Shown: in pieces, positions 30,367-31,891 of the stretch
How positions within the stretch are numbered: the stretch's first letter is position 1
How the letters are laid out: every line of letters starts with the position of its first letter
Source of the DNA: Saprospiraceae bacterium
GTDB taxonomy: Bacteria > Bacteroidota > Bacteroidia > Chitinophagales > Saprospiraceae
Assembly: GCA_015490175.1 (NCBI GenBank)
Contig: WFYJ01000044.1
Coordinates: 1 to 32,111, forward strand
Direction: 5' to 3'
Length of the DNA stretch: 32,111 bases
The notes under the pieces: generated by a model
Seen by the model: only the letters and a program-made list of their open reading frames with translations
Databases searched by the model: none
Told to the model about the DNA's origin: nothing
Program-made: the position numbers and the translations under genes

Positions 30367-31191
30367 TTGCTCGTGGACACACATCGACTACGCGCTTTGC
30401 TCAAGCATTACCTGCGTGCCCGAACGCGCTTTCGCTTGCACAGTCCTTTTGCCTACCAACTGGCTTGCGAAGTACTCGATGACGACCGCCACTACTATGC
30501 CTTCGACGAAATATCCTACCTGTACCGCCGCCTGCGCAAAAGCGACGAGCCCATCGAGCTGATCGACCGGGGGGCTGGCAGCCGGCGCAGCGTCAGCCGA
30601 CGCACTACAGTAGGCGAGGTGTTTCGCACGGCAGGCAGCTCGCTTTTCTTCTACAAATTCCTTTTCCGGCTGGTGCGATTCTTCCAGCCCGAAAACATCC
30701 TGGAACTCGGAACCAACCTGGGTCTCTCCGCGCTCAGCATGCACCGCGCAGCGCCACGAGCCCGACTGATCACCATAGAGGGCTGTCCCAATACGGCTGC
30801 TTTCGCAAAAAAGCTGTTTGCCGAAAGGCAGGCTCGAGTGGAAGTGGTTCAGGGACTGTTCCGGGAAGCCCTGCCACATGCCCTGGACCACCTGCAGCGG
30901 GTGGATTTCGCGTTCATCGACGGGGACCACCGAGGAGAAGCCACCCTCGAATACTTCCACATGCTGCTGCCCTACACCCACCCCGGCTCCATCCTCTTCT
31001 TCGACGACATCTACTGGTCGGCCGACATGGCGCAAGCGTGGGCAGCCATCAAAGCGCATCCCGATGTGCGCTTCACGGCCGATTTCTTCTTTGGAGGGCT
31101 GGTTTCCTTTCGAAAGGAGCAGGTCGTGCCCCTGCATCTCCATCTGATTCCAAGGCGGTTCAAACCCTGGCAAATGGGATTCGTGGAGTGA
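30367..31191 (+). CDS. class I SAM-dependent methyltransferase
   Basis: A protein of 274 aa if begun at TTG 30367. GTG at 30373 is as good, and there is no ATG before the in-frame TAA at 30307. The central Rossmann domain shows SAM motif I as ILELGTNLGLSALSM (about residue 118), followed by LITIEGCPNTAAFAKKLF, the acidic motif FAFIDGDHRGEATLEYF and ILFFDDIYWSADM. This is the arrangement of the Methyltransf_24/O-methyltransferase group. The N-terminal 100 residues are basic and aromatic, with an HSPFAYQLACEVLDD segment seen in Bacteroidota homologues. The substrate is unknown. The gene begins 44 bases after the right end of the repeat cluster, so its promoter may lie within or next to it. Confidence 0.88.
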   Translation: MLVDTHRLRALLKHYLRARTRFRLHSPFAYQLACEVLDDDRHYYAFDEISYLYRRLRKSDEPIELIDRGAGSRRSVSRRTTVGEVFRTAGSSLFFYKFLFRLVRFFQPENILELGTNLGLSALSMHRAAPRARLITIEGCPNTAAFAKKLFAERQARVEVVQGLFREALPHALDHLQRVDFAFIDGDHRGEATLEYFHMLLPYTHPGSILFFDDIYWSADMAQAWAAIKAHPDVRFTADFFFGGLVSFRKEQVVPLHLHLIPRRFKPWQMGFVE

Positions 31192-31212
31192 GCGCCTGCA
31201 AGCACAAAAAAA

Positions 31213-31271
31213 CTCCTGCATCAAGGGAGGTTGGACCGATGCAGGAGCACGAAACATACTATGAGAAAACT
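31213..31271 (+). ncRNA. leader-like hairpin 1 followed by ATGAGAAAACT
   Basis: CTCCTGCATC (31213-31222) pairs perfectly with GATGCAGGAG (31238-31247); the loop is AAGGGAGGTTGGACC. Preceded by AAAAAAA and followed by ACATACTATGAGAAAACT (31254-31271). It is 21 bases after the methyltransferase stop, so it might also act as its terminator, but no T-run follows. A short frame starts at ATG 31261 (MRKL...) and runs into repeat sequence. Confidence 0.5.
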
Positions 31272-31357
31272 ACACGATTGCTTGCCTGAATGCCTTTGCC
31301 CCGACGGGCGCAGCCACCCCAAACGCTTGCCGCAAAAAGCTGAATGGACGATAAACT

Positions 31358-31392
31358 ATGGTCAATGGTCAATCGCCAATGGTCAATCGCCA
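31358..31392 (+). repeat. 7-bp tandem repeat (ATGGTCA / ATCGCCA)
   Basis: Five consecutive heptamers in perfect phase: ATGGTCA, ATGGTCA, ATCGCCA, ATGGTCA, ATCGCCA. A degenerate echo (AATAGTCAATGGACGCCA) lies at about 31834-31851. Confidence 0.8.
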
Positions 31393-31488
31393 AACTGCGC
31401 GGATCCGCACCTGAAAGCTCTGGTTTGATGGATGGGGAACCAAAGATTTGAGGATTTGACCAAACAACTGATAGTCAAGATGAAAAAC
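31390..31488 (-). repeat. degenerate inverted copy of the 3589-3720 repeat
   Basis: Read on the minus strand it gives a GAAAAAC-start linker (31488-31456) resembling TTGATTACCAG...TTGTCAA, then CAAATCCT octamers, CATCCATC, and a CTTTCAG/GCGCAG block. This is the same order as copies 1 and 2. Confidence 0.55.
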
Positions 31489-31562
31489 CCTGGTGTACTC
31501 ATCCCGCCAGTTCTTGAGCGTAAAATGGCACAAATTTGGAAATAATTAATATGACGATTGGC

Positions 31563-31743
31563 TACCTTTCAAAAAAACCTACACCCTCGAAGGGACTTCA
31601 AGGTGTAGGACGATTAAAACATACTATGAGAAAACTGATGTAAAGATAAAGCCGCCCACCTTGAAAGGAAACACCCGACACCTGACAGGTGTCGTTGCTT
31701 TATCCCGAAAAGCCGGCCTCACAATGAGCGGTTGGCTTTTTTT
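31563..31743 (+). ncRNA. candidate structured RNA with hairpin 2 and intrinsic terminator
   Basis: A -7-like box TACCTTTC (31563-31570; TTTG 24 bases upstream) is followed at once by hairpin 2: CCTACACC (31578-31585) with GGTGTAGG (31602-31609), with inner GAAG/CTTC. Then comes ACATACTATGAGAAAACT (31619-31636), shared with hairpin 1. Next, GATAAAGC (31645-31652) can pair with GCTTTATC (31697-31704), enclosing a GACACCT/AGGTGTC hairpin (31677-31693). A terminator ends it. The only frame after the ATG is five codons (MRKLM, stop). I do not recognise the RNA family. Confidence 0.5.
31708..31743 (+). terminator. strong intrinsic terminator
   Basis: AAAAGCCGGCC (31708-31718) pairs with 31730-31740 over 11 bp (two G-U), followed by a run of seven T (31737-31743). 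No protein gene ends nearby, which implies that an RNA is terminated here. Confidence 0.82.
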
Positions 31744-31891
31744 ATTGAGCGGCAAGTCTGCGTCAGGTATTAGCCCAACTTTACCCGGAGGATCATGTTA
31801 TACCCAACGCAATTCGGTTTGGGAATTATTGACAATAGTCAATGGACGCCAAACGATTGTTTGAGATGGAGAGAAGAGAGATGGAGTGAAA

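Follow-up and report, generated by a model that had tools for sequence, protein, structure and literature searches.

Several described systems come close to the RNAs reported here. In B. thetaiotaomicron the 5′ seed of FopS halts translation of a susC mRNA by binding close to its start codon, an effect opposed by the RRM protein RbpB (PMC11697453). LhrC1-5 of Listeria monocytogenes are multicopy small RNAs (sRNAs) under the control of LisRK that block translation through C-rich target motifs, one of which lies in the terminator (PMC4132741), and the streptococcal csRNAs of the CiaRH regulon are likewise a set of similar sRNAs under one two-component system. Here we describe two hairpin units near the right end of a 32,111-nucleotide contig from a Saprospiraceae bacterium (WFYJ01000044.1; the whole stretch is called the window below). 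Their reading as two adjacent minus-strand genes, each for a very short regulatory RNA, is strongly supported as regards both the identity and the structure of the RNAs, and they belong to a family found in many Saprospiraceae.

In the passages of PMC11697453 on which we draw, FopS and GibS are RNAs of about 65-70 nt with a single-stranded 5′ seed and a terminator, an anatomy that the Saprospiraceae sRNAs share; one FopS-like sequence is reported there from a phage, and the Saprospiraceae family has one unit on a viral-collection contig. The Saprospiraceae sRNAs differ in standing in tandem arrays beside a histidine-kinase gene and in having LytTR-like promoter repeats, whereas no dedicated two-component system is named for FopS in those passages. 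The LhrC RNAs resemble them in being multicopy, in being tied to one two-component system and in their C-rich motifs, but belong to another phylum, have another sequence and regulator and, in the parts of PMC4132741 used here, are given three CU-rich sites, with no counterpart to a 5′ segment complementary to a start codon. The csRNAs also come from another phylum with another regulator, and are likened by description only.

Scans with Rfam 15 returned no family at threshold in the window end or in six loci of the family; homology to LhrC or the csRNAs was not detected there, and the likeness is one of design. FopS was not matched either (E up to 1 for the window end, up to 5 for the six loci), its presence in the release being unconfirmed. 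Below threshold, the one match in the window end (E 0.63) did not lie over the units, the four in the six loci (E 1.2-4.9) were all far below their gathering scores, and the two of these four that overlie units, to atoC RNA (L151) and Pseudomon-1 (L165), were taken as chance. The open-licence PMC literature, in which absence is not proof, yielded no report of sRNAs in Saprospiraceae; on LytTR together with small RNAs in Bacteroidetes it yielded a genome paper on Flavobacterium columnare, and for paralogous Bacteroidota sRNAs with a two-component system the FopS work alone (PMC11697453). The family is apparently undescribed and is of a known kind, that of multicopy sRNAs linked to a two-component system, with FopS-like anatomy. 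Most of what is known of regulatory RNA in Bacteroidota comes from gut and oral genera; the present units define a candidate sRNA family that is widespread in a group common in the environment, and for which an upstream regulator is predicted and the seed is open to direct testing.

Two predicted short RNA genes and their family

A preliminary description of the window had pointed to two units with a shared plan, and both are present with the same 18-mer, ACATACTATGAGAAAACT, on the plus strand (Table 1). When up to three mismatches were allowed, this 18-mer was matched twice in the whole window, against a mean of 0.00 in shuffled sequences (n = 100). The stems, which had been called completely different, proved to be related: CCTGCATC and CCTACACC are identical at six of eight positions, and the opposite arm compensates both differences. 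Each minus strand folds into a single hairpin (−19.7 kcal/mol for copy 1, −18.2 kcal/mol for copy 2), and none of 200 shuffles folded equally well. The order on the minus strand of copy 2 is a −7-like box (TATCTTTA), 4 nt, the segment AGTTTTCTCATAGTATGTTT, the hairpin and seven T; the seven A seen on the plus strand, the strand on which the preliminary description had wrongly read the units, are the terminator U tract of the minus strand, and beyond the 18-mer, at the opposite end of the unit, comes the promoter box. A sigma-70-type scan predicted no promoter or terminator at the units, its promoter rule not being that of Bacteroidota and its terminator rule taking only loops of 3-8 nt.

The same plan recurs in the family. 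A −7 box is followed by an unpaired 20-nt 5′ segment (AGUUUUCUCAUAGUAUGUUU), then by a covarying hairpin whose loop is rich in C, and lastly by a U tract; the RNA measures about 66-70 nt. We aligned 67 units that had been collected by the exact 20-mer and for which the script required a perfect stem of at least 6 bp beside a T run. RNAalifold returned the same 10-bp stem unaided, 94.9% of the cells were paired, and two-sided changes were found at nine of the ten pairs. Cells with two-sided changes numbered 111 compared with 29.6 in shuffles, none of 500 shuffles was as high on any of five measures, and sliding the partner by 1-3 columns lowered pairing to 28-51%. Because the stem was a selection criterion for this alignment, more weight is due to the 165 unique full copies that were unselected for the stem, among which 152 carry a perfect stem of at least 6 bp beside a T run; of the other 13, several show a broken stem or a short T run, and in a few no hairpin is clear. 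These figures uphold the earlier suggestion of a selected RNA structure, and the search for further copies that had been proposed as its check found many, with stems that stay paired. The family has the conserved, covarying terminator hairpin with U tract by which intrinsic-terminator sRNAs are recognized. Hardly any variation is seen in the 5′ segment: among 86 unique matches to the model the main letter stands at each of positions 2-19 in at least 83, at position 1 in 80 and at position 20 in 78, although this somewhat overstates the invariance because the matches come from loci picked among the best ones. An inserted variant, TGTTTATTCTCATAGTATG, retains the core.

The −7 consensus of Bacteroidota promoters is TAnnTTTG. 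Of 177 non-redundant upstream sequences of family members, 131 have a TAnnTT(T)G box 8-19 nt ahead of the RNA, compared with 1-9 of 177 in six other intervals of these sequences. A promoter of its own at a fixed distance is a property of the family; the box of copy 2 is one base off and that of copy 1 is degenerate. The FopS genes have canonical sigma-ABfr promoters (PMC11697453, in the passages used).

Table 1. Positions of the features discussed in the window
Feature	Position	Strand	Basis or remark
sRNA gene copy 1	31206..31271	-	66 nt, RNA 31271 -> 31206; R1 77.7 bits, fold z -4.6
sRNA gene copy 2	31571..31636	-	66 nt, RNA 31636 -> 31571; R1 63.7 bits, fold z -4.1
Copy 1, plus-strand layout	31206..31271	+	A7 31206-31212; stem CTCCTGCATC 31213-31222; 15-nt loop AAGGGAGGTTGGACC; stem GATGCAGGAG 31238-31247; 6 nt; ACATACTATGAGAAAACT 31254-31271
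Copy 2, plus-strand layout	31571..31636	+	A7 31571-31577; stem CCTACACC 31578-31585; loop with CGAAGGGACTTC; stem GGTGTAGG 31602-31609; 9 nt; 18-mer 31619-31636
Copy 1 unpaired 5′ segment AGTTTTCTCATAGTATGTTT, presumed seed	31252..31271	-	near-invariant in 86 unique model matches; unpaired in predicted fold
Copy 2 unpaired 5′ segment AGTTTTCTCATAGTATGTTT, presumed seed	31617..31636	-	as for copy 1
Copy 1 terminator hairpin and T7	31206..31247	-	sequence, fold, family covariation
Copy 2 terminator hairpin and T7	31571..31609	-	sequence, fold, family covariation
Copy 1, place of −7 box, here CAGGCAAG	31281..31288	-	same-genus genome G142 has TAACTTAG; box degenerate
Copy 2 −7-like box TATCTTTA	31641..31648	-	4 nt before RNA; last base departs from TAnnTTTG
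LytTR-like repeat AACCGCTCATT at −97 of copy 2	31723..31733	-	21 bp from TGCCGCTCAAT repeat
LytTR-like repeat TGCCGCTCAAT at −118 of copy 2	31744..31754	-	pair score 15.0, threshold 14.5
Methyltransferase gene, context only	30367..31191	+	Pfam Methyltransf_24 5e-20; homologue (by eye) also borders G142 array

Distribution and gene neighbourhood

A covariance model, R1, was searched against the own genome and against samples of the family, order and class, a match in the family sample being a hit at E up to 0.01. The own genome has three strong copies, namely the two in the window and one at C95:340-409, together with a diverged copy at C49:13381-13440 (38.9 bits) and a weak match on C9 (E 0.04). 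Genome G142, from the same genus, carries three copies in tandem within 534 bp on its contig C11 and a fourth on C22. Within the Saprospiraceae sample, matches were found in 157 of the 298 genomes and in 70 of the 112 genera, with up to seven copies per genome; under the stricter filters of Infernal used here, the remaining 141 genomes gave no match. The class sample yielded matches in 7 of 295 genomes, namely the two from the own genus (E <1e-11) and five more with E values of 0.0027-0.006, and the order sample in 21 of 198, of which 16 lie inside Saprospiraceae and five outside it at E 0.002-0.009. None of the ten matches outside Saprospiraceae showed, by eye, a clear −7 box at the right place. 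Judged from these two samples, in which strong matches occur only inside Saprospiraceae, the sRNA family is not convincingly present elsewhere.

A few more distant units deserve mention. L231, L292 and L005 (own genome, C49) have the seed complement behind other GC-rich hairpins and are probably diverged family members. On a contig from a viral collection (L445:515-577) an open frame is directly followed by a unit (R1 40.9 bits) in which the exact 20-mer is combined with a GTGCGATG/CATCGCAC hairpin and TTTATTT; it is a possible phage-borne sRNA, the contig being known only as a viral-collection entry.

A scan of the sequence collection gave at least 117 loci, and the multi-copy and neighbourhood counts refer to the matches listed. 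Among those 117 loci, 50 hold two to four exact copies, on one strand in all 50, with a median spacing of 256 bp. Flanking proteins were clustered over 122 loci (the 117 and five longer ones), not all of them independent and many of them cut. With the sRNA strand taken as forward, a homologous large protein is encoded upstream in at least 46 loci, a second protein before that in at least 20, and a convergent protein downstream in at least 26. Pfam searches with one representative of each assigned TPR and His_kinase to the upstream protein, Response_reg and LytTR to the second, and Transglycosylase, Transpeptidase and BiPBP_C (PBP1C-like) to the convergent one. The sRNA arrays are thus often found directly downstream of a gene for a TPR/LytS-type histidine kinase, with a LytTR response-regulator gene beyond it in at least 20 loci. 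Kinase loci were counted by BLAST cluster (46), a count by the N-box motif (9) being too narrow; for 33 of the 46 cluster members the kinase label comes from similarity only, because no N-box was found in the stretch examined and many loci are cut.

In the own genome, the third copy, on C95, is followed by a kinase gene (TPR_12 3e-20, His_kinase 5e-20 and HATPase_c 5e-5, the last below the cut-off) and, beyond that, by IscA-like and IscS-like genes (by eye). Given that G142 runs in the order kinase, three sRNAs, methyltransferase, it is probable that a single array is split between the right end of the window and C95, and the window copies are probably two of at least three neighbouring sRNA genes.

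A second recurring place for the family lies between genes for a ribose-phosphate pyrophosphokinase (at least 12 loci) and a rhodanese protein (at least 15 loci). The units found there form a separate syntenic class (L019, L025, L063, L067 and others), made up of single copies with the stem TCCTACTGCC and 20-21-bp-phased repeats.

Phased repeats in the promoters

Upstream of the −7 box, many promoters of the family have two or more TACCGTTnnCT units in 21-bp phase, at about −118, −97, −76 and −55 from the RNA start. A repeat pair above the 99% threshold of dinucleotide shuffles was found in 101 of the 177 promoters, a score that is not independent because the consensus was drawn from some of the same promoters. 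When promoters were counted by single spacing, 89 had a pair at 21 bp, 34 at 20 bp and 13 at 22 bp; spacings of 18, 19, 23, 24 and 29 bp gave 3-6 each, and those of 14-17 and 25-28 bp gave 10-19. The spacing peak and the fixed positions are stronger evidence than the repeat score. Against plain shuffles, repeats were detected in 55 of 96 kinase-linked promoters and in 49 of 92 others. In addition to copy 2 (Table 1), the C95 copy has a pair above the threshold (16.0, threshold 14.5). A stringent search for the repeat pair in 20 genomes gave 59 matches compared with 25 for the reversed pattern, 8 of the 25 in one genome; of 30 repeat-pair loci inspected, 8 precede family sRNAs, two (L432 and L411) precede the short units described below, and 20 lie elsewhere, some inside genes.

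LytTR direct repeats are described as mostly 12 bp apart, with a minority at 11 or 13 bp (PMC6193735), and the promoter-proximal repeat pair of AgrA as centred near −60 (PMC4227749). In the parts of these two papers used here, LytTR-family sites are direct repeats upstream of activated promoters, as in the sRNA promoters, in which an 11-bp unit every 21 bp leaves about 10-12 bp between cores, a distance comparable to LytTR spacing. The sRNA promoters differ in having up to four phased repeats and sRNAs as outputs, and their sites are predicted from sequence. LytTR control is well supported as a prediction for the sRNA family, with weaker support for the window copies.

Three further observations concern the repeats. 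In L432 (genome G359) a repeat pair and a −7 box precede a shortened seed, TTTCTCATTTG, that keeps TTTCTCAT, and a terminator with a CCCTCCT loop, and in L411 (genome G417) a repeat pair stands before another short terminator-ended unit; R1 finds neither, and the two may be relatives that have diverged, or additional sRNAs belonging to that regulon. In the window, the −7 box of copy 2 and its LytTR-like repeats enclose a perfect palindrome, CGACACCTGACAGGTGTCG, at 31676-31694, which is a possible regulator site.

A proposed seed mechanism and its competitors

We consider it rather probable that these loci encode several trans-acting sRNAs driven by a LytTR/kinase system, and that their shared 5′ seed blocks translation at start codons. 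A TPR/LytS-type kinase would sense a signal, and a LytTR regulator would bind the phased TACCGTTnnCT repeats and activate several short RNAs; the common unpaired 5′ segment would then act as a seed, pairing over mRNA start codons and blocking translation of a set of mRNAs. Computation shows the sequence and structure of the units, their covariation and tandem arrangement, their conservation across the family, the promoter box, the repeats and the gene neighbourhood; that the units are transcribed, that this kinase and regulator act on these promoters, that the RNAs pair at start codons, and which mRNAs are affected, are inferences. The complement of the seed is ACATACT-ATG-AGAAAAC (in RNA, ACAUACU-AUG-AGAAAACU), and because the seed is antisense to such a translation-start-like sequence the RNAs most likely pair over start codons. 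FopS offers a precedent for a 5′ seed of this sort (PMC11697453). Likewise ATGAGAAAACT, the plus-strand complement of the RNA 5′ segment, may show the pairing partner of the RNA rather than an encoded protein. A broader proposal, which we hold only tentatively, is that one invariant seed, antisense to a generic signal-peptide start (AUG-AGA-AAA), lowers the translation of many exported and outer-membrane proteins at once in a family-wide circuit fired by the kinase and LytTR regulator. Should exported proteins indeed be controlled by the seed at their start codons, a two-component system would be linked to envelope remodelling through RNA.

Candidate target sites were sought with CATACTATGAGAAA (up to one mismatch) in 20 genomes, where 132 matches were found compared with 29 for the reversed pattern. 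Of these, 45 were set aside by position as sRNA copies and 87 were examined, a few of which are still sRNA-like (e.g. L252, L270 and L292). The permuted control was one pattern with 38 matches, 30 of them examined, and seed-complement sites were about twice as frequent. Among genes with such sites are those for DUF6089-type outer-membrane proteins, three in one genus with CATACTATGAAAAA and one in another genus with CAGACTATGAGAAAACT. We compared DUF6089 loci, 30 from sRNA-bearing and 30 from sRNA-free genomes (of 108 and 47 matches listed), and mean agreement with the 20-nt target sequence was 9.4 for 31 starts in the former and 7.9 for 30 starts in the latter; starts were chosen heuristically and often plainly wrongly, one of the 30 loci gave no start, and the sRNA-bearing set had received five added loci picked for seed or control matches (three without a frame, L278 with a wrong frame, and L339 from the permuted control). 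The listed DUF6089 matches themselves number 108 in 20 sRNA-bearing genomes and 47 in 20 sRNA-free ones. No mRNA is claimed as a target, the target tests being weak or negative.

Several of these results, and some from the own genus, weigh against the proposed mechanism. The share of sites at gene starts is the same, about 40%, for the seed complement (35 of 87) and the permuted pattern (12 of 30), and CATACT (up to one mismatch) precedes ATG at 12 of 927 ordinary starts, about twice the mean of its permutations (5.8; rank 3 of 90), so that the excess of seed sites may reflect the composition of start sites. DUF6089 is not convincing as a family-wide target, since the four suggestive sites are not borne out by the wider set. 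At the promoters, the −7 box of copy 1 is degenerate, and because CAGGCAAG stands where G142 has TAACTTAG, this copy may be weakly transcribed or decaying. The repeat pair of copy 1 (12.5) falls under the 14.5 threshold, the G142 promoters (11.0, 14.5 and 12.0) do not exceed it, and the stringent repeat pattern found no match in the own genome, G142 or G320. Finally, in the own genus the regulator gene does not lie beside the kinase gene. In favour of the mechanism, the own genome has a best match to the regulator, C52:33689-34432 (E 3.8e-37, compared with 1e-9 for the next), with Response_reg and LytTR domains; it is unlinked to the sRNA array.

An unlikely alternative is that pairing is done mainly by the C-rich terminator loop (CCUCC/CCCUUC), on G-rich sites before start codons as in UCCC-motif sRNAs, and that the invariant 5′ segment serves to stabilize the RNA or to bind a protein such as the RRM protein. 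LhrC is described as using CU-rich motifs, one in its terminator (PMC4132741, in the parts used). The own genome encodes one RRM_1 protein, and in 137 units the loop has CCTCC in 56 and CCTTC in 56; however, the motif is missing from 17 of the 137 loops, in contrast to the near-invariance of the 5′ segment. Shine-Dalgarno pairing is not known to be common in Bacteroidota, which also bears against pairing by the loop.

We give still less credence to the view that genuine RNAs are controlled by some other regulator, the phased repeats and the kinase being bystanders, or that they mainly feed back on the kinase and regulator genes. The weak repeats of the own-genus promoters would fit this, as would the class between the pyrophosphokinase and rhodanese genes, which has repeats without an adjacent kinase, but the 21-bp spacing peak and fixed positions in so many promoters, and the at least 20 loci whose gene group includes one for a LytTR regulator, argue otherwise. 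It is highly improbable that we are dealing with a mobile or REP-like repeat that has no function as RNA: although genomes may hold several copies and one unit lies on a viral-collection contig, the units recur in syntenic places, run in one direction within every listed array, and keep promoter boxes and repeats at fixed distances.

The preliminary description had left a choice between an RNA regulator, which is probably correct, and plus-strand 5′ leaders of exported-protein genes since lost, which we reject as next to impossible in spite of the resemblance of ATGAGAAAACT to an exported-protein start, given that the frame from the ATG has a median of 10 amino acids (165 unique copies, of which 5 reach 60 and 2 reach 100) and that promoter box and terminator lie on the minus strand.
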